Virus record (IMG/VR): IMGVR_UViG_3300021347_000003
Coordinates: 1-48,911 of that record
Length of the DNA stretch: 48,911 nucleotides
Reading direction: 5' to 3' (one strand)
Origin: a virus
Shown: positions 1,826 through 45,140 of the stretch, in pieces
Layout of the letters: every line of letters starts with the position of its first letter
How positions within the stretch are numbered: the first letter of the stretch is position 1
Notes under the pieces: model-generated
The model's database searches: none
Told to the model about the DNA's origin: nothing
Seen by the model: only the letters and a program-made list of their open reading frames with translations
Made by a program: the position numbers and the translations under genes

Positions 1826-4800
1826 TTATTTTAAGAAAAGTCCAGTAATAAAAAATTGTGCTGTCCTATACACAAAAGTTCCAAGATTGGTAAGACTACG
1901 TTTCCTACCTGTAGCAAAATCTACATAATCCTTAAACTCTTCGTAGTGATTGTGTGCACGACCTGCTTCAATAGCTTTAATGCCATGGTAGCGGTATCCG
2001 CGTCTAACAGCTTCGCCATACCAACGTTTGTGCAGATTCTTAACACACCATCGTACTGCTTCGCGTTTAACGTCCGCAGAAAAGCCTCCATTAGATACAG
2101 CATGTGTAGCAATAACACATCCGTTGCCGCCGCCTTGGCCACCGCCTTTGTCATTATCTGGATTAGTTCCACTAGTTACGACTCCACCGGAACTTGTAGT
2201 AACAGCGTTGCCACTGCTGTCTGTAACAGCACCAGCATTAGGGTTGCCAGTTTGTGCTTGCGCGGCTGCATCAGCATTAGCTTTATTCTCCGACTTTTGA
2301 GCTGCAGCTTGGGCAGGTTCCATACCCGCAGTTGATGGACCCCTAGTGTAACCGGCTGATGTAGTATCAGTGCCTCGGTTTCCAATGTCATCCACACCCG
2401 CAAAGCCGCTTACAGTCCCTGTGCCGGCTGTTGTACTAGAAGGAACATCGGTACCAGCAACTTGTGTGCCTCTTGAAGTAGGAGTTCCAGGTCTATTTCC
2501 AAAGTCATCAACCATTCCAGTTGGGCTATTAAAACCACTCGCAGTGCCATAATTACCAATCTGGCTAATGCCTTGTGTTGCTGTAGGTGAAGTAGACATG
2601 CCTTGGCTATAATCTCCAAGTTGGCTGACGCCTTGTGTTGCCGTAGGTGAAGTAGATATTCCTAATTCATTACTTGTTAATGGGCTAAGTCCAGCCGCCT
2701 GCATCTGCCTATCAATAATTTCGCTAGCAGTGCTACGCTGTGCAGGTGTCATAGCTGCCGTATTCATAGTACTCATTTGTGGCATTGGTTGGGAACTAAC
2801 CGCACCAGTTACAGGGTCAATAGCAGTCATTACTGTTCCAGCCCTATTCGCTATGCCAGGTACGCTTTGTTTTCCAGCAATTACACTTGGAGTTGCTAAA
2901 TTATTGTTTTGTATAGCGGCCATGCTATTCATGCCTGAAGGATAGGCAGCTAATTCATCGGGAATCCCGAAGCCCATCGGTCCTTGAAAAGCCATATTTC
3001 CGCCCTGCACTGATGGGGCAGCTGGGGCAGCTGAAGCACTAGGATTGGAGCTTAAGTCCAATGCAATCATTTCAGCCAAAGATTGACTTGTATAAGGAAT
3101 GCCCATATCTTTAGCTATGGCTTTAGCGGCATCTTGTTGTTCAGCTTTAGTTGGGCCAAAACCTTGTGTACCAAGTACTTGTGAACTAATATCTTTAATG
3201 GCACGACCTACGTTATAGTTAGGGGAATTACGAGCTACGTTTACATCATGGTCAACAGCTTGTTGTGCTGTCATGACAGAATCAATAAACCCAACATGCG
3301 CAGGATTTGTTCTATCTTTTGTCATTGCATCGTAAGTTTCGCGGGATATGACAGCCGTTTGTGGCTTACCATATGCATCAGTTTTGTTATAGTCAGTTAG
3401 CCGAACTTGGTCATAGTCAGTGGTTAACATTCCCATAAGACCTGGCATTCCAGATGGATTACTTGTTTCAAGTCCAAAGCCATATGTACTATGTCCAGAC
3501 AAAAGGCCATTGTTTGATGTGCCACCAAACACTGCGGTACCACCTGGTGTGCTTGATTCATCTGCACCATCCCCACCTTCCGACGTATCCCCGCTGTCTG
3601 GACGCGTAGTAGCGTCACTTGGGTCAGTTACTGCTGGTGGTGTAGATGAAGTTTCTTCACACTGTTGAGTTACATAATTATATGTAAAACCATCAGCACA
3701 TTCCTGTGGACCGCTAGCCGCATAGCTAGTTCTATTTGGTGCATAGACACTACTTGCATCGGTTACTGGAGTGTATGGTTTATTGGGGTCTGGTAAACTT
3801 AAAGGATTTAAAATGCTATTGTTTGGAATAGACAGGCCAGTAGCAGGGTTTACTAATGGATTAGATGCTTTAGAGGTAGTGGGCAAAGTAACAAATTGTT
3901 GTGAAGCAGCTTGAGGAGCGGCTGCATTTGTGCCCTGTAAAAAACGACCGGTTGGTGGGGTTAAAGGAAAAGTTCCAACCTTGCTAGGATTGGGGTTGGT
4001 TATCAAAGCACCTTGGTTGGCTTTAATAATGCCGCCATCATCATCAACTTTATCAGCTTTTTCTGTACCACCACTAACATACTCAATTTGTCCATTAGTC
4101 TCCATATCTTGTAAACCCATAAGAGCATCACGGCGCATACCTTCATACGCACCTAGACCATGGTAGCGAACAACGTTGGCAGGAACTACAAGTTCGCCCT
4201 CACTAAGAAGCACAAGCTGGTCATCAGCTACTTCTTCTTTAGTGGCGCCCGGTGGAGGATTGCCTTCAGCGGCTTCTTCGTAGTCGGCAGGAGGAGCACC
4301 TAAGCCAATCATTACTGACATTCCGCCATCATCAGGCATACCGCCTTTTGCCAGCATAGGAATCTCTTCTGTGGGTGTGGTTGAACCTGTTGGGGGTACA
4401 GGGGAAGCCATTTGGGGAACTGTTTTTGGTATTGGTGCTGGCGTAGGCGCAGAACGTTTTTGCAATTCTTGTGACACTTCTTTAAAGGCCGCATCTCGTG
4501 GGTCGGATGAACCGGCTGGTGCAGGTGCTCCTGTAGGTGCTCCCAAACCTGCTGGTTGTGCCGCAGGGTTAGCTGCTTTTGGGCCACCACCTTGAGGTGC
4601 AGATGTTGCTTCCTCCATTGGTAGCGGCATTTTTCCTTGTTGTGCCATCATTATTCCCCCCTCGGCTTTTTGTGGTACAGGTGTTGCTCCATAGCTTAAC
4701 ATAGGCGACAAATCATCAATGTTTTCTGGTGTATCACCAGCGTACATAGCATTGCTTATATCAATTGCTTTTTGTATAAATTCTTCACGATTTGGATAGG

Positions 4801-5218
4801 CTTTACGTAGTGCTCTACCGAAAGCGTTATTATTTAAATCAATTTCAGATTCAGCAGAACGGTTTTCTTTAGAACCTTCCCTTGCATCTATTAAGGATGA
4901 TGCTACTTTAGAACCGAGTCCAGTACCCAAAAAGTTTTTAGCGCCAAGAACGCTATCTTCTTCACCTACTGTGGCTAGTCCACCCAAAAGAATGTGCCGT
5001 AGGGTGTCTTCAGTTCTATCATCATCCGTAAAATTAAATTTGTTTGCCGTGCCACGTGATATAGATAGCGAATCATTTACAGCATCCGCAGTGCCCGTTA
5101 AATACATCGGCACCATTTCTAACGATGAGATTCCAGCATCTTGGTAATCTTTTATTTCGCCCTTGCCTCTGCGGACTGCATCTTGGCGTGTTAGTCTGTT
5201 ACCAATCATGTCGCTCAT
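1826..5218 (-). CDS. Large low-complexity structural protein
   Basis: The ATG at 5218 is preferred over upstream in-frame starts because it follows the stop of the previous gene by one base; it gives 1130 aa. The N-terminal 200 residues look folded. The middle contains a motif seen in marine phage virion proteins (EGELVVPANVV, then YHGLGAYEGMR) and long Pro/Gly/Ser/Thr/Gln-rich stretches with internal repeats (SPTATQGVSQLGDY, SPTATQGISQIGNY). The last 100 residues form a separate Cys-containing basic domain starting GCVIATHAV and ending in a hydrophobic segment. It follows the portal gene and precedes scaffold and capsid. Probably a virion protein; exact role unknown. Confidence 0.6.
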   Translation of the reverse strand: MSDMIGNRLTRQDAVRRGKGEIKDYQDAGISSLEMVPMYLTGTADAVNDSLSISRGTANKFNFTDDDRTEDTLRHILLGGLATVGEEDSVLGAKNFLGTGLGSKVASSLIDAREGSKENRSAESEIDLNNNAFGRALRKAYPNREEFIQKAIDISNAMYAGDTPENIDDLSPMLSYGATPVPQKAEGGIMMAQQGKMPLPMEEATSAPQGGGPKAANPAAQPAGLGAPTGAPAPAGSSDPRDAAFKEVSQELQKRSAPTPAPIPKTVPQMASPVPPTGSTTPTEEIPMLAKGGMPDDGGMSVMIGLGAPPADYEEAAEGNPPPGATKEEVADDQLVLLSEGELVVPANVVRYHGLGAYEGMRRDALMGLQDMETNGQIEYVSGGTEKADKVDDDGGIIKANQGALITNPNPSKVGTFPLTPPTGRFLQGTNAAAPQAASQQFVTLPTTSKASNPLVNPATGLSIPNNSILNPLSLPDPNKPYTPVTDASSVYAPNRTSYAASGPQECADGFTYNYVTQQCEETSSTPPAVTDPSDATTRPDSGDTSEGGDGADESSTPGGTAVFGGTSNNGLLSGHSTYGFGLETSNPSGMPGLMGMLTTDYDQVRLTDYNKTDAYGKPQTAVISRETYDAMTKDRTNPAHVGFIDSVMTAQQAVDHDVNVARNSPNYNVGRAIKDISSQVLGTQGFGPTKAEQQDAAKAIAKDMGIPYTSQSLAEMIALDLSSNPSASAAPAAPSVQGGNMAFQGPMGFGIPDELAAYPSGMNSMAAIQNNNLATPSVIAGKQSVPGIANRAGTVMTAIDPVTGAVSSQPMPQMSTMNTAAMTPAQRSTASEIIDRQMQAAGLSPLTSNELGISTSPTATQGVSQLGDYSQGMSTSPTATQGISQIGNYGTASGFNSPTGMVDDFGNRPGTPTSRGTQVAGTDVPSSTTAGTGTVSGFAGVDDIGNRGTDTTSAGYTRGPSTAGMEPAQAAAQKSENKANADAAAQAQTGNPNAGAVTDSSGNAVTTSSGGVVTSGTNPDNDKGGGQGGGNGCVIATHAVSNGGFSADVKREAVRWCVKNLHKRWYGEAVRRGYRYHGIKAIEAGRAHNHYEEFKDYVDFATGRKRSLTNLGTFVYRTAQFFITGLFLK

Positions 5219-5219
5219 T

Positions 5220-5438
5220 TTATGATGCCGCCTTAGATATAACTTCATCACGCAATGTGCGTAATCTGCGTAATTCTTGTATAGCACCTTGTGCTTGATA
5301 CACGGCTTTCATGTCATCGCCCTGTTCCATGTTACGGTGCATATCAGTGATACGAGACTCCATGTACATTTCTAATGCATCAAGATTGCGCTTAACATTA
5401 ACGAGGGGTAAAAGTTTCTTAGCTATTTCTGGGGTCAT
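5220..5438 (-). CDS. Small helical protein after portal
   Basis: A 72-aa acidic/basic helical protein (begins MTPEIAKKLLPLVNVK), coupled to the portal gene by an ATGA overlap. It has no Cys, signal peptide or known motif. Small helical proteins in this position sometimes accompany head assembly. I do not recognise the family. Confidence 0.6.
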   Translation of the reverse strand: MTPEIAKKLLPLVNVKRNLDALEMYMESRITDMHRNMEQGDDMKAVYQAQGAIQELRRLRTLRDEVISKAAS

Positions 5439-21195: not shown

Positions 21196-23049
21196 ATGCC
21201 TAGAGCAAACTTTGGCCAAATGGCTGACTGTATGCGTGCTATCAATCTGCACGTTCGTGACTATGCAAATGAACATGACGTACCCCGCGACTGGTTCATG
21301 GAACAGCCCACAGAGTTGCATCCGGTAGCCCTTTCAGCTGCCCGCAAGCTACAAATCTTGGCACCATATGTCGAGGAATTCTTCAGTGACTTGAATCAGG
21401 TTTTGCGTAACCATGGTCTTCCAGATGGTCGGCACCGTAATTATTACAACATCGGCAGAGACATGACCATGCAGTATCCTGTCATCTGGAATGCAAACAA
21501 AGACGGTGTCATTTGTTTTCCTAACTTGTCTATGGACTTACTCAGCCCACATAATGGTTTGCGTCATGAGAACCCGTGGTTCCCAAAGTGTAGTGTCTCA
21601 CTTCACCAACGTATCCGTGACGATTTGTCTGACCCCAAGAAAAGCCAAGCATGGTTGCCTGTATCTCGTGGCATCAAGCGGCTTGGTACTCGTACTGAGA
21701 CATCTGTATCTCGTGCGTTGTCAAGGGCTTTCTTGTGGCATGGTGAGAAACTTGCGTGTCCACAGTATATTGACAACACTGCGGCTCGTCTTATTGATAT
21801 GCACAAACCAGCCCAGTTTCAGTTTGCCGATACTGCTGAGGATATGCGCGTTATGTACACACGCGAGAGTAGTTCAGAAACGCCTTCATCATGTATGGAC
21901 TCAAAGCATAGCTTTGCTTTGTATAGTCCACACAGACCTATCGACTTCTATGGACATTGCCCGATTACTAAAGGTGCATACATATCTCGTGGTGGTATTG
22001 TTGTAGCCAGAACGATTTGCTGGCTCGATTCTAAAGATGGTCAGTGGTATCACTCACGTGTGTATTCGTCACGCAATGCTTCAAGTAGTGAGCTAACGAA
22101 GCATCTGGGAGAGCACAATGTCAAATCAATTGACAATCTTCCTAGACCGGTGCGTTTCACTGCTGAGTTCGATATCCCTGCGGGTAAGTACAATGATATT
22201 GCAGCTTGTCCAATGCCCTACTTTGACTCACAGCCGTTTGACGCCATGGTTCTCAAACTGTCAAGTGACAAAACAATGTTTCACGTGCGTATCGGTGCAC
22301 GCAACATTATTGCGCCGAAGGGTGAGGATTGGCAATATCCTAACCTTACATCAACTTCTGGTTCATATTGCGCCTACGAAAGCGCTGAGTGTACCTATTG
22401 CAATGACGAGATTGACACTGAGAATGATTCCTTCTGGAATGTCGAAGGTGATATCTATTGCACTGTACACTGTGCAGAAGAAAATGATGCTGTGTGGTAT
22501 GTGACATCTGGTGACGACAATCTTGTGTACCATTGCAACATTGACTTCACTGACACTATTCGCGCCCATCATGGCAATGGTATCTTCAGTAACCAGCACG
22601 CTGCCAGAGTTCGTGGTTGCGTATATCATCCTGTTCCATGGGCTGATGTCGAGTATCATATGTTTGTACATTGGGATGACCACAGTGGTGATGACATGGG
22701 TCTTGCCTATGTTGGCAACTCTGGCTATGTGTGGGATGCTAAAAGCAAGTCCACAGTGCGTATGTATTGTGATGCTCTGGGTTCACCCAGTGATGTTGCA
22801 CATGCAGTTCTGCCTTACACTGATGGCTACTTCACGTTCCACAGTTTTCCTGTCGTCTCCGAGACTGCCAATCCCAAGAAGGTAGATGACACAACTACTG
22901 TCATGCGTTATATTGCAACGTGTGGCAATCCAGATAATTTTGACGACTCTATGTTTGATGATTTTCTGGGTGACGTACTACGCCCACACGCACCATTACT
23001 TTCTGGTGTGACTATACTTCAACACTTTACAGGCAATGACCTATTCTAA
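21196..23049 (+). CDS. 617-aa SCM-motif protein with zinc ribbon
   Basis: The N-terminal 200 residues are helical. The centre carries MYTRESSSETPSSCMDSKHS (about 219-238) and GGIVVARTICWLDSKDG (about 267-283), motifs I remember from large phage early proteins of unknown function with a conserved Ser-Cys-Met. Near residues 397-430 there is a LIM-like zinc ribbon: ECTYCNDEID, then IYCTVHCAEE. No signal peptide. It is followed by the metallopeptidase gene with a 14-base overlap region. Possible enzyme (the Cys as nucleophile) but unproven. Confidence 0.7.
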   Translation: MPRANFGQMADCMRAINLHVRDYANEHDVPRDWFMEQPTELHPVALSAARKLQILAPYVEEFFSDLNQVLRNHGLPDGRHRNYYNIGRDMTMQYPVIWNANKDGVICFPNLSMDLLSPHNGLRHENPWFPKCSVSLHQRIRDDLSDPKKSQAWLPVSRGIKRLGTRTETSVSRALSRAFLWHGEKLACPQYIDNTAARLIDMHKPAQFQFADTAEDMRVMYTRESSSETPSSCMDSKHSFALYSPHRPIDFYGHCPITKGAYISRGGIVVARTICWLDSKDGQWYHSRVYSSRNASSSELTKHLGEHNVKSIDNLPRPVRFTAEFDIPAGKYNDIAACPMPYFDSQPFDAMVLKLSSDKTMFHVRIGARNIIAPKGEDWQYPNLTSTSGSYCAYESAECTYCNDEIDTENDSFWNVEGDIYCTVHCAEENDAVWYVTSGDDNLVYHCNIDFTDTIRAHHGNGIFSNQHAARVRGCVYHPVPWADVEYHMFVHWDDHSGDDMGLAYVGNSGYVWDAKSKSTVRMYCDALGSPSDVAHAVLPYTDGYFTFHSFPVVSETANPKKVDDTTTVMRYIATCGNPDNFDDSMFDDFLGDVLRPHAPLLSGVTILQHFTGNDLF

Positions 23050-29579: not shown

Positions 29580-30469
29580 ATGTAAATCAAAGTCGCCTTC
29601 TTTCATTCCTTTCAAAGGCGGCTCGTGGGGAGGCAGAAATGTCTCCTCACACCCTTGATAGGTTTGCACAATACGCGCGTGACGCTATGGAAAAGCAGTT
29701 CACTCCAAAAGATAAAGCATTTACATTGCGTATGAGTAACATTGGTAAGCCAAGCTGCCAATTACAGATGCAAGCCAAGGGCATACAACCAGAATCCCCA
29801 TCATATGATTTTAAGATGCGTATGATTATGGGCGACTTAATGGAAGCTGCCATGTTCACATTGATGGAAGCGGCTGGCATTGACATCAAATCTAAACATA
29901 CAAAAGTATCTCACCAAGTAGGTGACACAGTCATCAATGGTGAGTATGACGTCGAACTAGATGACGGCATCTGGGATATTAAAACTGCATCACCATTTGC
30001 GTTTGAGCAAAAGTTCAACACACCTGATGGTTTTAACAGAATTAAAGATAAAGATTCATTTGGTTACGTAGCACAAGGTATTGGCTATGGTATGGGCGCT
30101 GGAAAGCCTTTCAAAGGATGGATTGCTTTAAATAAATCTACTGGAGAAATTGCTTTTACTGAGGCCACCGATAATGATACGGAGAAGGAAGAAGTAAATG
30201 AGAAAATACAGAAATCTATTTCTGCAACAAACTCCACTGAGCCGTTTAAACGACAGTTTTCTGATGCTCCAGAGTCTTTCTACAAGAAAGAAACCGGAAA
30301 TCGGGTATTGGGGTTTGAGTGCACATGGTGCGACTACAAAGAACATTGCTGGGAAAACTTGGAATTCAGAAAGCAATTACCAAGTAAATCCAAAAACCCC
30401 AAGTTCGTCTGGTACACACACATCACAGACTACTGGCGTAATCATGACAATACAGTACAGGACACCTGA
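29576..30469 (+). CDS. Cas4/RecB-type exonuclease with Fe-S cysteines
   Basis: 297 aa. RecB-family nuclease motifs are visible: GDLMEA (86-91), D125 in GEYDVEL, DIKTAS with D134 and K136, and the QxxxY motif YVAQGIGYGM (Q167, Y171). Four Cys (C61, and C249, C252, C258 in FECTWCDYKEHCW) match the Fe-S cluster pattern of Cas4 and AddB. It overlaps SSB by ATGA. Role: 5' exonuclease for host DNA degradation or recombination. Confidence 0.85.
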   Translation: MNVNQSRLLSFLSKAARGEAEMSPHTLDRFAQYARDAMEKQFTPKDKAFTLRMSNIGKPSCQLQMQAKGIQPESPSYDFKMRMIMGDLMEAAMFTLMEAAGIDIKSKHTKVSHQVGDTVINGEYDVELDDGIWDIKTASPFAFEQKFNTPDGFNRIKDKDSFGYVAQGIGYGMGAGKPFKGWIALNKSTGEIAFTEATDNDTEKEEVNEKIQKSISATNSTEPFKRQFSDAPESFYKKETGNRVLGFECTWCDYKEHCWENLEFRKQLPSKSKNPKFVWYTHITDYWRNHDNTVQDT

Positions 30470-30665
30470 TGGTACTGCGTCAGCAAAAATCTTTAAAACG
30501 ACTGAAGCGGAAGCCTACGACTTCATCACGGAGCTCAAAGAAGGCATCCCCTTCCCCACGCTCTACTGTGAAGGCCAAGTCTGTGCCTTCTCAGCGAAGC
30601 ACATCAACGAAGTCCGTGCCGAAAAAACGGATGTCGGTGAGGTCAGCGAAAGCAAAGGGTCGTAA
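30444..30665 (+). CDS. Small protein of unknown function, 73 aa
   Basis: ATG at 30444 lies inside the exonuclease end. The product (TIQYRTPDGTASAKIFKT at the start) has a compact alpha/beta look with EGIPFPTLYCEGQVCAFSAK and two Cys. A real gene is favoured over the overlapping frame because of its balanced composition. Overlaps the next gene by 35 bases. Function unknown. Confidence 0.6.
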   Translation: MTIQYRTPDGTASAKIFKTTEAEAYDFITELKEGIPFPTLYCEGQVCAFSAKHINEVRAEKTDVGEVSESKGS

Positions 30666-31433: not shown

Positions 31434-31453
31434 CAGCATGTAGGAGTCGTGTA

Positions 31454-32464
31454 GTGAGACACGTAGATTTGTGTAGTGGTATCGGCGGCTTTGCTCTAGG
31501 ATTTGAGCAAGCTAATCTTTCAACCCCAGTTATGTTCTGTGATATAGAACCGTGGTGTAGAAATATACTTAAACAACACTGGAATAACGTACCTATTAAA
31601 TCTGATGTAAAGGAATTAGCTAATGACCCAGACAACCTTGTTCCCGATTGCGACATCCTCACAGCAGGATACCCCTGTCAGCCCTTCTCCCAAGCGGGGA
31701 ACCGCAAAGGCAAAGAAGACCCACGTCACATCTGGCCGCACATCCGCAAAATTGTTGCATCCAAAAGACCCTCTTGGGTTGTTTTCGAAAACGTTTATGG
31801 TCACATCAGCTTGGGACTCGACGCTGTGCTCCTTGACTTGGAAACCGAAGGCTACGCCACAAGGACGTTTGTTGTTCCAGCTAGCGGCATCGGCGCACCC
31901 CATAAGCGAGATAGAGTCTGGATTGTGGGCTACACCGAACACAATGGACCATCTACCGCTACGCTCCAAGGAGAGCATGGAGAAAATGAAAGAGGGTCAC
32001 AGGAAGGGCAGGAAGCGTCCCAGCAATCTGCGGGAACAGGTGAATCCAGAGTACGTGAAGATGTGGGCAACTCCAAGGACAACGGATGGGACGGGCGGCC
32101 CACGCCAACTGGACGAAAAGGGTCGCAGGATAAGCAAGACGAATCCAGACCTGAAATTCGGGGCGAATCTAGCGGACCAAGTACGGATGTGGCCGACACC
32201 AACAACCAGAGACCACAAGGGCGGCTATCAGGGTGGCAGGATACGCAACGGCAAGGTGTCGTGGGACACACTGGATGTAGCAGTTCAACACACCGACAAC
32301 CAGAGCAAAACTGGTGGACAACTGAACCCGATGTGGGTAGAGTGGCTAATGGGATACCCAAAAGGGTGGACAGACTTAAAGGACTAGGCAACGCCATAGT
32401 ACCGCAAATTGCACAACAAATCGCTGAATCAATAAAGGTAGTAGAAAATGCCAAAAGATGTTAG
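31454..32464 (+). CDS. dcm: C5-cytosine DNA methyltransferase
   Basis: GTG start at 31454; 336 aa. Dcm motifs: I DLCSGIGGFALGFE (5-18), IV GYPCQPFSQAG with catalytic C75, VI VFENV (E112), VIII RDRVWIV (152-158) and X RLKGLGNAIVPQ (about 308-319). Residues 165-290, the usual target-recognition region, are hydrophilic and low-complexity, because the same DNA also encodes a second frame. Role: methylates phage DNA, probably against host restriction or by host-pattern mimicry. No partner restriction enzyme is next to it. Confidence 0.93.
   Translation: MRHVDLCSGIGGFALGFEQANLSTPVMFCDIEPWCRNILKQHWNNVPIKSDVKELANDPDNLVPDCDILTAGYPCQPFSQAGNRKGKEDPRHIWPHIRKIVASKRPSWVVFENVYGHISLGLDAVLLDLETEGYATRTFVVPASGIGAPHKRDRVWIVGYTEHNGPSTATLQGEHGENERGSQEGQEASQQSAGTGESRVREDVGNSKDNGWDGRPTPTGRKGSQDKQDESRPEIRGESSGPSTDVADTNNQRPQGRLSGWQDTQRQGVVGHTGCSSSTHRQPEQNWWTTEPDVGRVANGIPKRVDRLKGLGNAIVPQIAQQIAESIKVVENAKRC
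31623..32387 (+). CDS. Overprinted WPTP-repeat protein inside dcm
   Basis: A 254-codon frame, +1 to dcm, begins with ATG at 31623 and has its own ribosome site (AAAGGA, 31609-31614, eight bases before). Its protein is not random: LWATPNTMDH, MWATPRTTDGTGG and MWPTPTTRDHKGG are repeats of one block and it ends QLNPMWVEWLMGYPKGWTDL. I recall this WPTP and WVEWLMG-x-P-x-GWT pattern as a C-terminal part of, or a neighbour to, phage cytosine methyltransferases. The two proteins share 765 bases. Whether it is translated alone or by frameshift cannot be seen here. Confidence 0.55.
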   Translation: MTQTTLFPIATSSQQDTPVSPSPKRGTAKAKKTHVTSGRTSAKLLHPKDPLGLFSKTFMVTSAWDSTLCSLTWKPKATPQGRLLFQLAASAHPISEIESGLWATPNTMDHLPLRSKESMEKMKEGHRKGRKRPSNLREQVNPEYVKMWATPRTTDGTGGPRQLDEKGRRISKTNPDLKFGANLADQVRMWPTPTTRDHKGGYQGGRIRNGKVSWDTLDVAVQHTDNQSKTGGQLNPMWVEWLMGYPKGWTDLKD

Positions 32465-36269: not shown

Positions 36270-36537
36270 GCTAGATGTACACCTGAGCATAACCAAGCAG
36301 GGCATCGGTGTAACCATATCAGGCGAAGAAGCTGAGACTTCATTTAGTGAATATACATGGGATGAGCTGTCTGATGACATGATTGAACAGCATGCTGTAC
36401 CTGTGCTAGCTAGCAATGACTATAAGATAAGCAAAGATAGCCGCGACTTTATCAAAGAGGCGGCACAAAAAATGCGCTATGCCGCTAGTAAAATGGCACA
36501 GCGCACTGATAATATGGATGTTGTTGATATTAGTTAG
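36235..36537 (+). CDS. Small protein at the end of the rightward operon
   Basis: 100 aa from ATG at 36235, within the nuclease end. Acidic, beta then helical (LDVHLSITKQGIGVTISG, then RDFIKEAAQKMRYAAS). Its stop TAG shares bases with the stop of the opposing structural gene. Function unknown. Confidence 0.65.
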   Translation: MASMKTLSIHSELDVHLSITKQGIGVTISGEEAETSFSEYTWDELSDDMIEQHAVPVLASNDYKISKDSRDFIKEAAQKMRYAASKMAQRTDNMDVVDIS

Positions 36538-39500
36538 GGATTAGTAGTCCCATACATACCTTGAACTGACTGGGATGCTGCGGAACTACTCTGTAGCATC
36601 CTTTCTGTTTGGTCTGCATCAGATTCACGTACGCCCATACCTTCCATAGCTACCTTAGCAATTAGAGTACCGTACGCACCAGACCCAAAGAACATTTGCT
36701 TTAGTTTATCTGCAGTTGTCTGTGCTTTACCAGTCCCTGTTACTGCTTTAACGAACTCATCATTAGCAAGTAATCTTGCAACTCGTGCCTGCGTACCCAA
36801 ACGTGCAAGACCAGAAACAAACTTTCCAGGGTCTACTGTGAACATTTCACCAATAATTTGTGCACCTGCAAGTGCAGAACCTGCATCAGCGCCCTGTCTA
36901 TTAATTACTCCAGCATACTCAGTGATGGCATCTAGAACTTTTTCATCTGTTTCATTTAGGATATCCCTAAATACACCAGCAGATTTAAGCTTTGTCATAA
37001 CATTTTGCAATGCAGCTACATCTATTGTCTGCTGACCTACCTCTGCAAAAGCACTATTACTTTGTACTTCTTTTAGTACACCGCTTTGTGGCGAAATAAT
37101 AAAATTAAGTAACCCCTCACGTAAATTTGAGGCCACCCCTTCTTTACCTTCTGGGGTTGCTTGTCTACGCCCCACTGCCAGCAGTTCATTTAAGGATGCA
37201 CGAATTTGTGCAGAGTCTCCGCTAAGTGCTGTTTCAAACACTTCAGCCATTGTGCCGGATTGGGGTGCACCCAATACTTGGTCTATGCTTCCACCACGTT
37301 GCAGGTTAGCAATTAAGGTAGCATCATTCCGTATCTGCGCTTCTTGTGCTTCATCAATACCCAACGCACGTAATTGACGTGGTTCAAATGAATCTAGAAA
37401 GTTAGTTACATCAGTTGCACCAGTAACATCCGACAAATCAGTAGGCATCATACGTGATAGCTTGCTACTCAATACGCTAGCAAAAGAATTCTTTAGGTCA
37501 GTGGCAGCACCTATAACTTCCGGCCCAGTTTTAGATGGGTCAATCCTATCTATATTTTGGCGTACGTATGCTTCCTGTGCATTAATGTTTTCCATAGTTA
37601 CGGTTGCTGGTAAAGCACGACCACCCCCACCTGGAACTGTTGTTAGCTGTTCTGCTAATGTAGCAGGTTCAGGTGTTTCTGTACTTCTACGGCCTATACG
37701 AGCTTGTGTCTGAAGCCCAGTGCCTGTTAACTCAAAAGTTTCTTTATAGAAATCATTTGCTTTTGCTAGGTTGTCTGCTACTCCATCAATTGGTTTTACA
37801 GGTTTACCAATTAAGTCAAGAAGTGCATTACGCATTTCCATAGCCTGCCCAAATAGCTTTGGATTAGTTGCTGTGCCTGCAGTGCCAAATGTGTCACGTG
37901 CCAGCTCACCGTAACGAGATGCATATAACTGTAGTATTTTAGCTGGGCTGTCTACAGATTTAGCATCAAAGTTAAACCCTGGGTTATCTTCCGCAAATTG
38001 TTTTACAGCTGCCCTAATTTGTGATGGATTAATCTGACGAGTGCCGTCTTTTTGTACTTTACCCATAGTAATAAGGCTATCCATGAGATTACTCATAAGC
38101 CGTTCACCACGTACTTCTGGCGGCAAATCTGCAGCTATCGTTGTTTTATCAAGTCTAGTTGCATCCGCTGGTGTTACGGGGATAATAGTTGTAGTGTTTT
38201 CTGGCAGAAACGCACGTATATCATCTAAGTTGTATGACGAGTTCTTTACTTTATCAAAGACATCTGAGTATAACCCACGAGCCTCAACAGCACGAAGCCG
38301 TAGAAACAAGTCTTCTAAAGAACCTAGGTTTTCACCTATGGTAGTTAAGTCTGGTCGCTCACCCACTGGTGCATCCTGTACAGATTTTAGTGTTTGTCCG
38401 ATACCTGCTACGTCTTGTTGGAACTTTTTAAAGTCTCCTTCACCTACATCGTCACCGTATTTTTTAAGATACGCCACAACAGACTGCATCTGTTCTTGTG
38501 TTTTAAGGGGAATAATTAGGGATGTCTGTTCTGCTAAACTTGATACACGACCGATTAATCTGCTAGGCACAACCTGCTGTAGCATCAAGTTTTCTAGTGG
38601 AATGCCAATATCCATGGCGCCACCAGCGGCTGTTTCTGCTACTGTTTCTTGTGCTCTAACTGCGGATTCATAAGTTGTAGGTTTGATTTGTCCTTTAGAA
38701 CGCACACTACCTATGGCTAGTTTCATTTTGTCTTTTAGACCAGGAATTAGGGCAAAAGCAGTTTCTAAGGCGCCGGCAATTTCACGTTGTTTTTCAGCTT
38801 CGGTAGCTTCACCTTCTTGAAATACCTCTGGAACAGTTAGTTCTTTAATTAAATCTAATGTTCCAGAAAACTGCAGGGCTTCTTCTTTGTTTAACCCAAG
38901 TTCATCTTGTAGGTATTGCCTACCAGCTTCTACAGATTTTCCACCAACGTACAGTGTATACCCAAACATTATTGGAGCAGTAACGACAGCAAGAGGACCA
39001 CTTACGGCAGCTGTAGCCGCGCTAGTAGCAAAAGCGGCAGGAACGATAGCTAAAGAAGCCCCTGTTTCAGCAAGTACACCTGGTGCGTAGCGTTCCACCA
39101 TAGCCTCAGCCCCAACAGTAGCAGGAGCAAAGTCGGTATATGTGCCATCATCACGCTTAATTGATACGTAATTACGTGGTGCAAACATACTAAGATTAGG
39201 ACCATCGTCCTTAATCATGCGTACGTTGCCCTTACCAAAGGTTTTTTCCATAGCGTTAAAATACTGTTCATCAGTATCAGCTAAGTAAAGTTCCTTTTGT
39301 GCACCGGCGGCACTAATTAGGTTAGATACCTCCGCACCTCTAGGGTCAACACTTACACCGTATTCCTGTGCTTTTGGTGTGAGCCTGTCCATGCGAGCTG
39401 CTTCAAACAGTTGTTCCGACTGCGCTAAAGCTTCTGGTGTTGTTTCTGAAAAAGCTTCTGAAGATGGCGTATCAAAAAGACCAAAGAATGTTTTTTCCTT

Positions 39501-39665
39501 CGGTAATTCATCTGCCTTTTTAGGGTCAAACATAACCCCTGGATATACTTCAATAGGGCCGGGAAGCACTACTTCGTCATCTTGGTCTACGGGTGCACTT
39601 GCTTGTGCAGGTAAAGGTGTTGAACCATACATCCCTGCTACAGATTGTGATGCTGTGTTGGCCAT
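36534..39665 (-). CDS. Giant internal virion protein, 1043 aa
   Basis: A 1043-aa protein, last of the leftward structural operon. It begins MANTASQSVAGMYGSTPLP and ends AASQSVQGMYGTTNP, the same motif at both ends. Residues 190-235 form an Ala-rich hydrophobic region (FATSAATAAVSGPLAVVTAP), and the remainder is helical and Gln/Glu-rich. Podoviruses eject such proteins to form a channel in the envelope. No transglycosylase motif is seen. Confidence 0.7.
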   Translation of the reverse strand: MANTASQSVAGMYGSTPLPAQASAPVDQDDEVVLPGPIEVYPGVMFDPKKADELPKEKTFFGLFDTPSSEAFSETTPEALAQSEQLFEAARMDRLTPKAQEYGVSVDPRGAEVSNLISAAGAQKELYLADTDEQYFNAMEKTFGKGNVRMIKDDGPNLSMFAPRNYVSIKRDDGTYTDFAPATVGAEAMVERYAPGVLAETGASLAIVPAAFATSAATAAVSGPLAVVTAPIMFGYTLYVGGKSVEAGRQYLQDELGLNKEEALQFSGTLDLIKELTVPEVFQEGEATEAEKQREIAGALETAFALIPGLKDKMKLAIGSVRSKGQIKPTTYESAVRAQETVAETAAGGAMDIGIPLENLMLQQVVPSRLIGRVSSLAEQTSLIIPLKTQEQMQSVVAYLKKYGDDVGEGDFKKFQQDVAGIGQTLKSVQDAPVGERPDLTTIGENLGSLEDLFLRLRAVEARGLYSDVFDKVKNSSYNLDDIRAFLPENTTTIIPVTPADATRLDKTTIAADLPPEVRGERLMSNLMDSLITMGKVQKDGTRQINPSQIRAAVKQFAEDNPGFNFDAKSVDSPAKILQLYASRYGELARDTFGTAGTATNPKLFGQAMEMRNALLDLIGKPVKPIDGVADNLAKANDFYKETFELTGTGLQTQARIGRRSTETPEPATLAEQLTTVPGGGGRALPATVTMENINAQEAYVRQNIDRIDPSKTGPEVIGAATDLKNSFASVLSSKLSRMMPTDLSDVTGATDVTNFLDSFEPRQLRALGIDEAQEAQIRNDATLIANLQRGGSIDQVLGAPQSGTMAEVFETALSGDSAQIRASLNELLAVGRRQATPEGKEGVASNLREGLLNFIISPQSGVLKEVQSNSAFAEVGQQTIDVAALQNVMTKLKSAGVFRDILNETDEKVLDAITEYAGVINRQGADAGSALAGAQIIGEMFTVDPGKFVSGLARLGTQARVARLLANDEFVKAVTGTGKAQTTADKLKQMFFGSGAYGTLIAKVAMEGMGVRESDADQTERMLQSSSAASQSVQGMYGTTNP

Positions 39666-39673
39666 ATTATTCC

Positions 39674-42037
39674 TTATGAATTTCTGTTTGCTTGTCTAAT
39701 CTTTGCAGCTTCTAATTCATCTGCAAGTGCTGATGCATTTGTTACGCCTGGAATACGTGCAAGATTAGAAGAATTAGAATATGCTTCTCTATAAGCTTCT
39801 GTGTCACCATTTAAATCACGGAAGGAATTCACACGCTGCATAGCCCTCTGTGTCATCTGCTGTACACGGAATATCTGTTCCTCGTATCGACCACGCTGTG
39901 CTACAGGCAATGCTTCATACTCATTCTTATTGAGAAGCTTTACACCATGTGACTGTGCTATATTTTTCATAATCTCTACAGATATGTTATTTTCAAGTAG
40001 CTTACCAGAATCATCTGTAATTTTTATAGAGCCATCGTCACGCGCTTCCATGATTGTCAGTGATGGATTATTTTGATACATTCTCATGGCTGTATCCATA
40101 GCCATTGCTTCTTGTAATCCAATCAATGCTTGTGTAGCACGAGTTGAACCAATTCCAGAGTCATTAATTACAGCAACGTAATCTAGCACAATTTTCAAGT
40201 CTTGGTCAGATAGCCTTGGGTCTTCAAACAACTGGTCTTTTGCTGTAGAAATCAAAGGAATTGTAGCTTGACGCATCTGTGTAATTTCTTGTGTTTCAGT
40301 TTCAAACCCTGGGATTGTTGTTCCAAGCACAGAATTAGCAATATCTACAGTATCTTGTGTACGCATAATGATGTCGCCCACAATGTTAAATCCATTTGGA
40401 TTTCTTGCGGTAAGTTGTATTGCATTACCGATATCCATAGAACGTGCATTATTAGTACCGATTTTTGTAATGTTAAGTGCTTTAGTTTTAGGACGGGGTT
40501 CTACAAAACCACCAGATGAGACAATTGGTGCACGTTGTAAAGTAACTGTGCCATTTGGCCCCACCATGGGAACCATTGCTATACCATCTTGGGTTGTTAA
40601 TCCACCAGCTGCAACAAATGACCCAGCTCTAGACCTGACTTCATCTTCATTCTGACTTGGGTCTACTCGCATACTTTCCGCAACTATTGATTCAACCTTT
40701 TCTTGGAACACGCTCATTTTATCTGCACCAGCTTCTGGTACTTTAGGAATGAAGTCAGTGGTCAAGGAGTTTTCAATAGCATTGAAAATAGTATCGTCTT
40801 TGGTTTTTGTAGCTATTGCTAGCTGTTGTGGCATAGCAAAAATTAGTTCTAGCTGGTCTGAAGTATATTTATCAGAATGCTCTCTAGCATGTTTAACAGT
40901 TTCTTCAACTAGCTTTGATATATGACCATAGCGTGTATCAGTTACTGTCCCTGCACCCAGCAGTTTCCTACCTTTAATAACTAGGCTATTTACAGTATCT
41001 GCAACGCCCTCTTTAGCCGCATACCCTGGAACGGTAGCCGCGTCATACATATGCTTAGTAAGTTCTGTTGATATTGTTGATAGCTGGTCACGTGTACCCT
41101 GCGACAGCTTATCATCAGAAATACCTGCTGAAATAGCTGAGATGCTAGTCCCATGTACCTCCTGAAAGAAACCCTTTAAGTCAGGGGGCATCATTGTGGT
41201 TAGAGCAAAGTTTTGTAACTGAGATACTTCAGCACCACCGGTACCGTCTACAGAGAACGTTTCGTAATCTTTCATAACTTTTGCAGCCAACTCACGACCT
41301 GTAACGGTTGTACCATCTGGCATTTGTATGTTTTCCATACGTAGAAAATCAGGCTTAGTTATTACATTTAGAACGCTACTTTGTTTAGCATCAACTACTT
41401 CTTTGTATTTATCTGTCGGAGCAATAGCTAAAGCTGCTGTTGGGTCTGCACGTGTAGGCATTGTACCAGCAATAACTTTACGATACTGTTCAATTGACAT
41501 ACCCAGCCTTTTTGCAGCTCTTTGCTCAATTTCTTCTTCATTAGCGCCACCAAATAAACGACCCATAAAAGAATCAAAGCCAGCATCAGGTTTTACAGGT
41601 GCTTCCGCCGCAGCTAATGCAGCTTCAGTTTGTGCCATATCTGGAGTTTCCACGACAGTCTGTGCAGTGGACTTCAACGGCTTAATAGAGAGTTTATCTC
41701 TATTATTTAAATAAAAATCAATAGGGTCTTTGCCGCCTGATAAATTAATAAGGCTACGCGCTATGCTATTTAGTTCATCTTGGCTAGCGTTTTGTATAAA
41801 TTCATCATCCTGTACAGATAATGCCTGTGCAATGTTGTCAATTTTTTTACTTTCAGCATTATAAGCATTTATACCGTCATCGTATGCCTTCTTTTTAGCG
41901 CCAAAACCCTGAACTCGTGATTGAATCCCTTCTTCGTCACGAACAGCATTAGCCTGTATAATATCAGTAGCAGTATCCAAGCTACCACGTAGAAAAGCAC
42001 CTGATGTGCCCCGCATCAATCCACCAAGAAATGCCAT
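39674..42037 (-). CDS. Internal virion protein, 787 aa
   Basis: 787 aa. The N-terminal 25 residues are Gly-rich and hydrophobic (MAFLGGLMRGTSGAFLRG), then a helical, Ala/Asp/Gln-rich body without Cys motifs. Its start follows the stop of the 183-aa gene by TAATG. Probably an ejected or core protein like those next to it. Confidence 0.65.
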   Translation of the reverse strand: MAFLGGLMRGTSGAFLRGSLDTATDIIQANAVRDEEGIQSRVQGFGAKKKAYDDGINAYNAESKKIDNIAQALSVQDDEFIQNASQDELNSIARSLINLSGGKDPIDFYLNNRDKLSIKPLKSTAQTVVETPDMAQTEAALAAAEAPVKPDAGFDSFMGRLFGGANEEEIEQRAAKRLGMSIEQYRKVIAGTMPTRADPTAALAIAPTDKYKEVVDAKQSSVLNVITKPDFLRMENIQMPDGTTVTGRELAAKVMKDYETFSVDGTGGAEVSQLQNFALTTMMPPDLKGFFQEVHGTSISAISAGISDDKLSQGTRDQLSTISTELTKHMYDAATVPGYAAKEGVADTVNSLVIKGRKLLGAGTVTDTRYGHISKLVEETVKHAREHSDKYTSDQLELIFAMPQQLAIATKTKDDTIFNAIENSLTTDFIPKVPEAGADKMSVFQEKVESIVAESMRVDPSQNEDEVRSRAGSFVAAGGLTTQDGIAMVPMVGPNGTVTLQRAPIVSSGGFVEPRPKTKALNITKIGTNNARSMDIGNAIQLTARNPNGFNIVGDIIMRTQDTVDIANSVLGTTIPGFETETQEITQMRQATIPLISTAKDQLFEDPRLSDQDLKIVLDYVAVINDSGIGSTRATQALIGLQEAMAMDTAMRMYQNNPSLTIMEARDDGSIKITDDSGKLLENNISVEIMKNIAQSHGVKLLNKNEYEALPVAQRGRYEEQIFRVQQMTQRAMQRVNSFRDLNGDTEAYREAYSNSSNLARIPGVTNASALADELEAAKIRQANRNS

Positions 42038-42893: not shown

Positions 42894-45140
42894 TTATCCG
42901 TATTTTGCACCGATGTATGATGCTCCAATTGTAGTCAGAAAACTACCAATAGATGATGCGGTGCTTTGGTCTAGATATTTATCTTGATTTTCTCTATTTA
43001 CATCAGCTTCTAGAACTGCCATAGCCATATTAAAAGCACGGTCATGTGCATTTTCAGCAGATGAATATGCATAATCAGCTTCATCACGGAACTGTTGCCA
43101 TACATTATTTAGTGCTGTGTTTGAAATTGCTAAGTAATTAGCAGCATTAACTTGGTTAGCCGCATTTTGTTGTGCTGTATTTGCAGTATTAACTTCACGA
43201 CGCCATTGTACATTACTTTGCTCAATAGCTAAAGCATTTTGTGCATTAAATTGTTCTCTTTGATTCTGCATTGTTGCAGTAAATTGTTGCATAGCGTTGC
43301 TTTGCCCAGCATTAAATTGTGAAGAGGCGCTAGCTGCTGCGGCATTGTACTTATTAATATCTTGCGTAAGATTAGCAAAAAACTGGTTAGTTTGGTTTGC
43401 ACTCGTTGCATTAAATTGTTGTGCTGCATTTTGGGCAGCTTGGTCAGATAGCATAGCTTGTTGTTGCGCTTGTTGATTTATTACTGCTGACTGTTGTGCA
43501 TTAGACATATTAGCCATGTCCATCTGCATAAAGCTTTGTGCATTTTGCACAGCCGCTTGTTGGCGAGTATTAAGATTCGCCATGTCCATCTGTGCCATAG
43601 TTGCCGCGTTAGCCAAAGCTGCGGCCTGTGTGTTAGACAGATTACTAAGATTAAGTGTTTCCACCATCTTAGAATTAGCAAATACGCGTTGTTGTTCTTG
43701 TGTAAACGTCATATTTGCTGCTTCGGCAAATCTTTCAGCGTTGAGGATGTTAGTCTGCTGTTGGTTGCTGAGTTCTTGTCCTGCCAAAGACGCATTAACT
43801 TGCATTTTAGCCAAGGCCATTTGTTGGCGATTTGACGTATTAGCTAAGTCAACATTCATATTATTCTGTGTATTAGCAAGCATAGCCTGCTGTTCGTTAG
43901 ACATAATCTGCGCTGCAGTTTTAAAATATGTCTGAGAATCTTGTGTAGCAATAGGAAGCGCCGCTTCCATAGCCGCTTGTGTAATTGCGGCACCTGCCAT
44001 AGACGATGCAGAAAGTCCGCGAGCTGCCATGGTAGCATCAGCGTTACGTATCGCACCTGCCGCCCATGAAGGGACTTGACCACCCGCAAACTGTGTAGAT
44101 AACCTAGCTAATTGCCCTTCTACAGTCATGTTCGGCGTTACTTGCATAGTCGCGCCTTGCGCGGTACTTACAAAACCAGATTGTGCCGCTTGATACGGGG
44201 TTAAAAATGCTGTATTAGCTGTAGCTGCTTGTGCTTGTTCTGGGGCTGTTACGGTGCGCCCTGTTAAAGGATTGATATTACCAGCAATTTGCCCTTGAGC
44301 TCCTTGAGCTTGCTGAGTTAGGGCTCCTTGCTGTGCCTGAACTTGTGCATCAGTAGATACTGTGCCCTGTGCAGTATTTACTTGGGGAGCATTTCCCATT
44401 GTTGCGGCGGCATATTGTTGTGCGGCTGTGGCTGCGGGTCCAACAGCTTGTGTAGCACTGGCCGCAGTTGTTGCAGGAGCAACTTGCCCTGTTACTTGTC
44501 CGGAAGTACCGGCAACTAATTCATCAGTACCTATAGTTTGAGTTTCTGGTAAATACAAACCCTGTTGAGGCATCAAAGGGTTAACTGATTGCTCACCCAT
44601 ATATTCATCAACAGCTCTAGGATTTGCTCCAGTGCCTACATTTGGTATTGTCATTTCTGGAACTCCTACTGGATTACTCGTACTGCCTGTACTTCCTGTA
44701 CTTGTACTGCCTGTACTTGTACTGCCTGTGCCACCCGTATTTGATGTTGGCTGAAAAGATTGCTGTGAGTAGCTAACAGGAACATAAGGTTGGGTTTGAG
44801 ATACGATTGCTCCTGTTCCTTGATTCCAATTAGGGTCGGTTTGTGCTGCTAGGGCTCTATTTGCAGCAGTATCTTGAGGAGAGCCTACTCGAACTATATA
44901 ATTCGAAGCGTCATCCGCACCTTCCATGCCCCAATTTTGATATGAATAATATTGATTTCCGCCCCTAGTCATGATATTGCCTTCGGGCATGGCGTCACCT
45001 TCAAAAGAAGGAATGCCCATTGGACCCGGCTCACCTGAACCGCCATACGCCTTTAGCAACTCACCTTCAGCAGGTGTAATGTAAGCAAGCAGATGGTCTT
45101 GACCTTTAATGTCGATATGGCGAGGAGGTGAATCAACCAT
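42894..45140 (-). CDS. Gln/Asn/Ala-repeat internal virion protein, 748 aa
   Basis: 748 aa. The first 90 residues look folded, then Ser/Thr/Gly linker repeats (STSTGSTGST) and Gln/Ala-rich low complexity, then from about residue 400 repeated helical units of the form NLSNTQAAALANAATMAQMD and NLNTRQQAAVQNAQSFMQMD. The C-terminal 40 residues are hydrophobic (ASSIGSFLTTIGASYIGAKY). Probably a core or ejection protein forming an alpha-helical tube. Confidence 0.65.
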   Translation of the reverse strand: MVDSPPRHIDIKGQDHLLAYITPAEGELLKAYGGSGEPGPMGIPSFEGDAMPEGNIMTRGGNQYYSYQNWGMEGADDASNYIVRVGSPQDTAANRALAAQTDPNWNQGTGAIVSQTQPYVPVSYSQQSFQPTSNTGGTGSTSTGSTSTGSTGSTSNPVGVPEMTIPNVGTGANPRAVDEYMGEQSVNPLMPQQGLYLPETQTIGTDELVAGTSGQVTGQVAPATTAASATQAVGPAATAAQQYAAATMGNAPQVNTAQGTVSTDAQVQAQQGALTQQAQGAQGQIAGNINPLTGRTVTAPEQAQAATANTAFLTPYQAAQSGFVSTAQGATMQVTPNMTVEGQLARLSTQFAGGQVPSWAAGAIRNADATMAARGLSASSMAGAAITQAAMEAALPIATQDSQTYFKTAAQIMSNEQQAMLANTQNNMNVDLANTSNRQQMALAKMQVNASLAGQELSNQQQTNILNAERFAEAANMTFTQEQQRVFANSKMVETLNLSNLSNTQAAALANAATMAQMDMANLNTRQQAAVQNAQSFMQMDMANMSNAQQSAVINQQAQQQAMLSDQAAQNAAQQFNATSANQTNQFFANLTQDINKYNAAAASASSQFNAGQSNAMQQFTATMQNQREQFNAQNALAIEQSNVQWRREVNTANTAQQNAANQVNAANYLAISNTALNNVWQQFRDEADYAYSSAENAHDRAFNMAMAVLEADVNRENQDKYLDQSTASSIGSFLTTIGASYIGAKYG
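44670..44735 (-). repeat. Tandem Ser-Thr-Gly codon repeats
   Basis: Short repeats of the GTACAGGCAGTACAAG type encode Ser/Thr/Gly units in the linker of the 748-aa protein. Such tracts can vary in copy number. Confidence 0.7.

Follow-up and report, generated by a model that had tools for sequence, protein, structure and literature searches.

Gene organization of the locus

The window, i.e., the whole stretch of 48,911 nucleotides analysed here (IMG/VR virus record IMGVR_UViG_3300021347_000003), carries a C5-cytosine DNA methyltransferase gene (dcm), within which a second open reading frame, ORF2 (31623..32387, + strand, 254 aa), starts with an ATG at dcm codon 57 and lies wholly inside the first gene at an offset of +1. 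The original prediction of a 254-codon frame shifted by one base inside dcm proved exact, and the AAAGGA ribosome site with an eight-base spacing to the ATG, the W(A/P)TP repeats and the C-terminal end that it described were all found in place. With alpha denoting the product of dcm and beta that of ORF2, the features of the locus are listed below.

31442..31446, + strand: AGGAG Shine-Dalgarno of dcm (alpha), 7 nt 5' of the GTG, read from the sequence
31454..32464, + strand: dcm (alpha), C5-cytosine DNA methyltransferase in frame 0, 336 aa, GTG start; PF00145, phrog_363 and M.HhaI fold match
31454..31942, + strand: alpha catalytic domain, motifs I-VIII, aa 1-163 (G9-IGG, PCQPFS, ENV, KRDRVW); pLDDT mostly >90, M.HhaI match, conserved columns
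31609..31614, + strand: AAAGGA Shine-Dalgarno of ORF2, 8 nt 5' of the ATG, kept at a dcm-synonymous site
31623..32387, + strand: beta (ORF2), nested +1 gene of 254 aa, proposed target-recognition/motif IX subunit; phrog_1008, +1 phase in 238/238 loci, codon-position pattern
31797..31925, + strand: beta N-terminal core, aa 59-101 (STLCSLTWKPKATPQGRLLFQL), over the coding of alpha motifs VI-VIII; dcm wobble rate 0.023 vs 0.157 upstream; weak hairpin, pLDDT ~70
31926..32063, + strand: beta cassette 1 (WATPNTMDHLP...REQVNPEYVKM); cassette family 0, 62 loci
31943..32359, + strand: alpha frame-0 linker, aa 164-302, unstructured and stop-free; pLDDT ~30, amino acids neutral over aa 164-285
32064..32189, + strand: beta cassette 2 (WATPRTTDGTGG...LADQVRM); cassette family 1, 37 loci
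32190..32321, + strand: beta cassette 3 (WPTPTTRDHKGGYQGGRIRNGK...); cassette family 2
32322..32378, + strand: beta motif IX element LNPMWVEWLMGYPKGWTDL, whose bases also encode alpha EPDVGRVANGIPKRVDRL; invariant G-LNP and LMG in both A1 and A2, serial before motif X in staggered loci
32324..32461, + strand: alpha EPDVGRV...RVDRLKGLGNAIVPQ and motif X helix, aa 291-336; conserved columns, pLDDT 77-96 from ~aa 310

The methyltransferase is surrounded in the window by a replication cluster (DnaB-like helicase, DNA polymerase, Cas4-domain exonuclease, RusA-like resolvase and ribonucleotide reductase), a position that is what an orphan protective methyltransferase would show. The rest of the window is recognisable as a tailed-phage genome, with terminase, portal/head-tail adaptor, tail fibre and RNR genes. 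Within it, a 155-aa ORF (30198-30665, + strand) overlaps, in other frames, the last part of the Cas4-like exonuclease gene as well as the first part of the RusA-like gene, and may be a further small gene; several large ORFs (617-1153 aa; 1826-5287, 21196-23049, 36534-39665, 39674-42037 and 42894-45140) had no PHROG match at E 1e-5.

Catalytic frame

The dcm product matched PF00145 (E 4.6e-42) and phrog_363 (E 8.4e-74), with motifs I-VIII and X, including IV (PC) and VI (ENV), present in its frame as conserved or invariant columns. The AlphaFold model, built on a 38-row alignment, is ordered at aa 1-163 (pLDDT mostly >90) and again at about aa 309-336, the motif X helix, while aa 166-302 stand at pLDDT ~30 and form neither helix nor strand. 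Its best fold matches were M.HhaI (top) and M.HaeIII over ~166 columns, and the M.HhaI sequence match was confined to alpha aa 1-160. No L-x-P...GFP motif IX appeared in frame 0, either in the sequence or among the conserved columns. Taken together, the model, this motif check and the selection analysis below reveal no ordered small domain carrying the target-recognition region and motif IX in the dcm chain. In M.HhaI-type enzymes, the small domain determines specificity through its variable region and motif IX (PMC3404938); that is to say, the parts absent from the dcm product are precisely those that give such enzymes their specificity.

Identity and start of ORF2

ORF2 matched phrog_1008 (E 3.6e-34), and despite the PHROG label of that family, 'DNA methyltransferase', it is devoid of catalytic motifs; the family probably owes this name to the partner gene that overlaps it. 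It gave no match in Pfam or NCBIfam, nor in a profile search of the PDB. The AlphaFold model of ORF2 alone, with 52 relatives, was of low confidence (pLDDT 54, pTM 0.24) and, therefore, was not used for fold claims.

The start of ORF2 and its ribosome site are located in the dcm codons for VKELAND. At this place the lysine codon of KE is AAG in 36 of 37 cases, as against 71 of 207 lysines upstream or elsewhere (P 6e-14), and the codon at ND is AAT in 36/36, as against 68/103 upstream (P 8e-6), both P values being inflated by relatedness. Some relatives begin with GTG instead of ATG, which is the exchange expected of a start codon. When dcm codons were shuffled synonymously, 1.1% of the shuffled versions of the window locus retained an open ORF2, and in 17 other divergent loci the share was 0-0.6% per locus. 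Furthermore, the same DNA encodes VADTNNQRPQGR and WPTPTTRDHKGG in its two frames, and both of these motif-like strings, already pointed out in the original prediction, are conserved; the 'VADT' of frame 0 is a shadow of the 'MWPTP' of frame +1.

Selection passes from one frame to the other

Changes in the two frames were counted over 136 pairs using a custom OLGenie-style script; the pairs are not fully independent, and a disjoint set agrees. The parts of dcm before and after the overlap served as internal controls within the same gene. Outside the overlap, the dcm changes in pairs at least 90% identical fall mostly at the wobble position (0.157 and 0.128), and in this identity class the dcm wobble rate is 0.148 outside vs 0.035 inside the overlap. 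This is the picture of an overprinted pair, with both frames conserved and the substitutions shaped by the second of them.

Along the gene, the selected frame changes. In dcm codons 57-163, both frames are under constraint, dcm (0.16-0.38) more strongly than ORF2 (0.31-0.73), with the ORF2 frame already constrained at codons 116-163. Over codons 164-285, the rate is 0.12-0.13 at dcm position 1, the wobble position of ORF2, as against 0.022 at position 2 and 0.012-0.017 at position 3, and amino-acid change amounts to 0.135 in dcm vs 0.023 in ORF2. Here the dcm frame is neutral (dNN/dSN 1.05, dNS/dSS 1.13) and the ORF2 frame strongly conserved (0.107 and 0.115), NS exceeding SN in 22 of 22 disjoint pairs; at codons 286-311 the values are 0.11 for ORF2 and 0.52 for dcm. 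From this pattern it follows that the selected frame switches at the motif VIII boundary, and, with the dcm frame neutral exactly where the target-recognition domain should be, that this domain is encoded in the second frame and not in both. The original view that both frames are patterned across the recognition region is hence not borne out on the dcm side.

Could ORF2 nevertheless be a by-product of the repeats and composition of dcm, and no gene at all? An open +1 frame in one locus is about 1% likely given the dcm codons, and the first ~58 aa of ORF2 are indeed weakly constrained. However, the frame is open and stop-free in every complete divergent relative, the Shine-Dalgarno and ATG are conserved at dcm-silent sites, the staggered loci described below continue the ORF2 frame with no dcm above it, and the substitutions are codon-like in the ORF2 frame where dcm is neutral; the last two findings already refute this explanation. 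A chance or by-product ORF was accordingly rejected on codon shuffles, wobble rates and dual-frame selection ratios, and its probability is practically nil. The checks proposed with the original prediction, namely a start and ribosome site conserved in homologues, the absence of stops from their second frame, and a synonymous vs nonsynonymous comparison in both frames, all turned out in favour of ORF2. The overlap is confirmed as a real, conserved gene pair with ORF2 under selection, overprinted on the methyltransferase recognition region as had been predicted, and the low-complexity look of that region comes from dual coding.

Modular cassettes in the second frame

The greater part of ORF2 is an array. 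Its relatives hold mostly 1-7 units of ~41 aa each, beginning with W/L/F-x-T-P, and the 657 units collected fall into 196 families, 51 of which have at least three members. Members of one family occur at varying positions and with varying neighbours, distant relatives included: cassette 2 of the window is 90% identical to its counterpart in locus L084, as against 47% for the catalytic domain and 32% for the N-terminal part of ORF2, and cassette 3 is 81% identical to one in the bacterial locus L138, as against 38% for the catalytic domain. A family is repeated within one gene in only 1 of 151 distinct sets, vs 11.3 expected from random dealing (0/5000 shuffles as low). Modular, non-repeating cassettes exchanged between diverged loci have the look expected of exchangeable target modules. 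Judging from their position, modularity and non-repetition, we consider the cassettes putative target-recognition units, each of which probably sets one target, so the copy in the window may have up to three.

Motif IX and the interchange of layouts

A motif IX (LNPxWVEWLMGYPxGWTDL), assigned by sequence and position, lies in ORF2. In the window and most relatives the layout is nested, frame 0 comprising motifs I-VIII and X and frame +1 the cassettes and IX. A staggered layout occurs in some 40 loci, among them L145 from bacteria and L168, L182 and L195 from viruses: alpha terminates after motif VIII, and beta, in the +1 frame and with a similar internal start, spans the cassettes, IX and X. 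The overlap of the two genes there, measured from stop to stop, is 335-630 nt in +1 phase, with all cassettes in beta, and frame 0 contains 6-40 stops past the end of alpha. These loci form a natural control: the cassettes are free of frame-0 stops only if frame 0 has to continue to motif X. In staggered genes, moreover, LNPDWVEWLMGY and EPDIPRV...RLKxLGN are serial, separate and both conserved, the very elements that share the same bases in two frames in the window. The profile of the staggered IX-X part (A3) found in the PDB only 4ONJ/4ONQ, which are C5 methyltransferases, at IX and X, with an E value of 0.54 that makes the match suggestive. On the FastTree tree of the catalytic domain, the layout changed 8 times by parsimony, at least 6 of them forced by supported branches.

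A third layout was observed in two actinophages, Gordonia phage Baddon (L248, 1655-2722 + 1701-2450) and Rhodococcus phage ReT1v-2 (L249, 1523-2680 + 1521-2450), where IX and X are both in the catalytic frame (the Baddon motif IX reads LSPVFVEWMMGLPRGWVT) and the nested +1 ORF consists of PTP cassettes only; the methyltransferase annotation of ReT1v-2 covers only a 153-nt fragment. In every case examined, across all layouts, the cassettes are in the +1 frame.

A single chain made by ribosomal frameshifting, i.e., frame 0 to motif VIII, +1 for the cassettes and IX and, in nested loci, back to frame 0 for X, would account for the movement of selection from frame 0 to +1 near motif VIII, and one +1 shift would complete the methyltransferase in staggered loci. 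On such a scheme, however, ORF2 would not need its own conserved start and ribosome site ~100 codons upstream, the constraint on the +1 frame at codons 116-163 would be superfluous, the nested form would take two shifts, and nothing in a double shift requires the frame-0 linker that nested loci keep open. We regard this explanation as improbable, and the fusion by frameshift once proposed for this locus finds no support, ORF2 having a start and ribosome site of its own.

Distribution of the gene pair

Relatives of ORF2 were detected by tblastn in 95 phage records, including Paenibacillus Fernvirus, P2-like phages of Salmonella, E. coli and Klebsiella, and phages of Lacticaseibacillus and Xanthomonas, some of which already have two overlapping 'methyltransferases' annotated. 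They are further encoded in 588 IMG/VR stretches and in 429 stretches of bacterial genome contigs from many phyla. We analysed 247 loci, and in all 238 with both parts on different ORFs, ORF2 was overlapping and in +1 phase, the others being cut, broken or ambiguous.

No ORF2 was found without a methyltransferase among the 247 loci, barring cut contigs and broken genes, and this constancy bears on two further explanations. The first treats ORF2 as a protein in its own right (an inhibitor, a regulator or an anti-restriction protein) that is located in dcm by chance, as its lack of a Pfam family and its low-confidence fold model would allow. Against it stand not only the constant company of the methyltransferase but also the beta motif IX element, which in staggered loci stands at the position of IX, ahead of X, and an alpha with no ordered recognition domain of its own; we judge it rather improbable. 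The second invokes an inserted out-of-frame homing element of the type known from ShiLan, an HNH endonuclease in actinophage methylases (PMC11855218), which is likewise a hidden ORF in another frame of a phage methylase gene. Yet ORF2 has no HNH or other nuclease match, it overlaps the conserved motifs IV-VIII and the region before X, so it is no insertion, and it is present in every relative and not scattered. A homing HNH or other insertion was rejected on the lack of a nuclease match and the conserved presence, leaving it a negligible probability.

Several observations on individual genomes may be added. A homologue occurs in 68 of 5426 E. coli genomes (e.g., H134-H173), and among the records listed the match mostly lies under a single 'DNA cytosine methyltransferase' CDS, so that the nested subunit is likely missing from those annotations. 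The Roseovarius MAG chromosome OX638333.1 has five copies of the pair (L106, L107, L108, L110 and L111) with identical match scores, mostly ~46-49 kb apart around the origin, and these represent either prophages arrayed in tandem or phage concatemers that were assembled as such. Lactobacillus phage Lc-Nu (L251:2001-2552) has an ORF2 relative that carries a single cassette and whose motif IX is reduced (FQETMMGFPKGWTDL, LNP missing), a decayed or minimal form. In a low-coverage MAG (L124:2675-3689), ORF2-like sequence (TPGGRLLFRLQPSMPRT) appears mid-gene in the dcm frame, probably through sequencing frameshifts.

A proposed two-polypeptide methyltransferase

We propose, with a probability of roughly 0.8, that a single C5-cytosine DNA methyltransferase is made from this locus in two chains, a catalytic alpha subunit and a beta subunit for target recognition and motif IX. 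Both would be translated from one message, each from its own start: frame 0 would yield alpha, in which a disordered linker connects the SAM-binding and catalytic domain (I-VIII) to the motif X helix, and frame +1, from its own ribosome site, would yield beta, with the cassettes for target recognition and motif IX of the small domain. The two would then associate into an active, sequence-specific enzyme, in which the linker of alpha would let X pack and beta would supply the small domain. Such an enzyme, probably an orphan methyltransferase, could methylate phage DNA at the targets of its cassettes and shield it from host restriction, and beta is possibly multispecific. Among the roles first guessed for ORF2, accessory, anti-restriction or specificity protein, the last fits best, and anti-restriction is unsupported.

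At about even odds, we would extend this to a widespread family of phage and bacterial cytosine methyltransferases in which specificity is a combinatorial, exchangeable cassette array in a second, overlapping frame, a cassette swap retargets a multispecific enzyme, the catalytic frame is a neutral linker over that stretch, and switching between nested and staggered layouts has been repeated.

Well-supported cases of long genes overlapping on the same strand are rare among prokaryotes, and the present pair occurs in hundreds of loci, with selection visibly passing between frames within one gene. It also suggests that many 'DNA cytosine methyltransferase' annotations omit the subunit that chooses the target; if so, the assignment of methylomes to genes would fail for these enzymes. 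Provided that the cassettes are target modules, each with a sequence of its own, they would make it easy to read the methylation that phages set against host restriction, or to redirect it.

Comparison with known systems

M.EcoHK31I (target YGGCCR) is, like M.EaeI, a two-polypeptide C5 methyltransferase, and its small subunit was reportedly described by Lee et al. in 1995 as encoded inside the large-subunit gene in another frame. The window likewise has its proposed small-subunit gene nested in another frame. In M.EcoHK31I, motifs I-VIII and X are in the large subunit and IX in the small one, with the TRD predicted in the large subunit (PMC3404938). The window follows the same motif plan (alpha with I-VIII and X but without IX, beta with IX). 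Unlike in M.EcoHK31I, the recognition stretch of the window is selected in the nested frame, as a modular cassette array, and relatives move X (staggered loci) or IX (actinophages) to the other frame; the assignment of the M.EcoHK31I TRD to the large subunit merits a second look. A search for M.EcoHK31I itself through plasmids and E. coli genomes returned phage- or prophage-type homologues only, none identified as EcoHK31I.

In M.AquI, one polypeptide holds motifs I-VIII and the second holds IX-X (PMC3404938), a split that the staggered relatives resemble; however, its variable region is divided between the subunits, whereas the staggered relatives keep all cassettes in beta. The window differs from M.AquI in having motif X in alpha, apart from IX. 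As for the ShiLan element, it is, like ORF2, a hidden ORF in another frame of a phage methylase gene, but it is a homing insertion, whereas ORF2 is a conserved partner gene that is not inserted and has no nuclease motifs.

The cassettes also invite comparison with the multispecific C5 methyltransferases of Bacillus phages, for which PMC12707154 cites Trautner et al. (1996). In those enzymes, several target-recognising modules of ~40 aa each are reported to stand in a row between motifs VIII and IX. The modular, non-repeating cassettes of the window lie at the corresponding place and may be modules of this kind. The Bacillus phage enzymes are a single chain in one frame, whereas the putative modules of the window are in a second frame and a putative second polypeptide. 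Our literature search found no paper on this overlap, with EcoHK31I mentioned in passing only. What the present locus adds to these systems is a recognition region placed in the other frame, an array of cassettes, layouts that interconvert, and an arrangement that is spread broadly over phages and bacteria.
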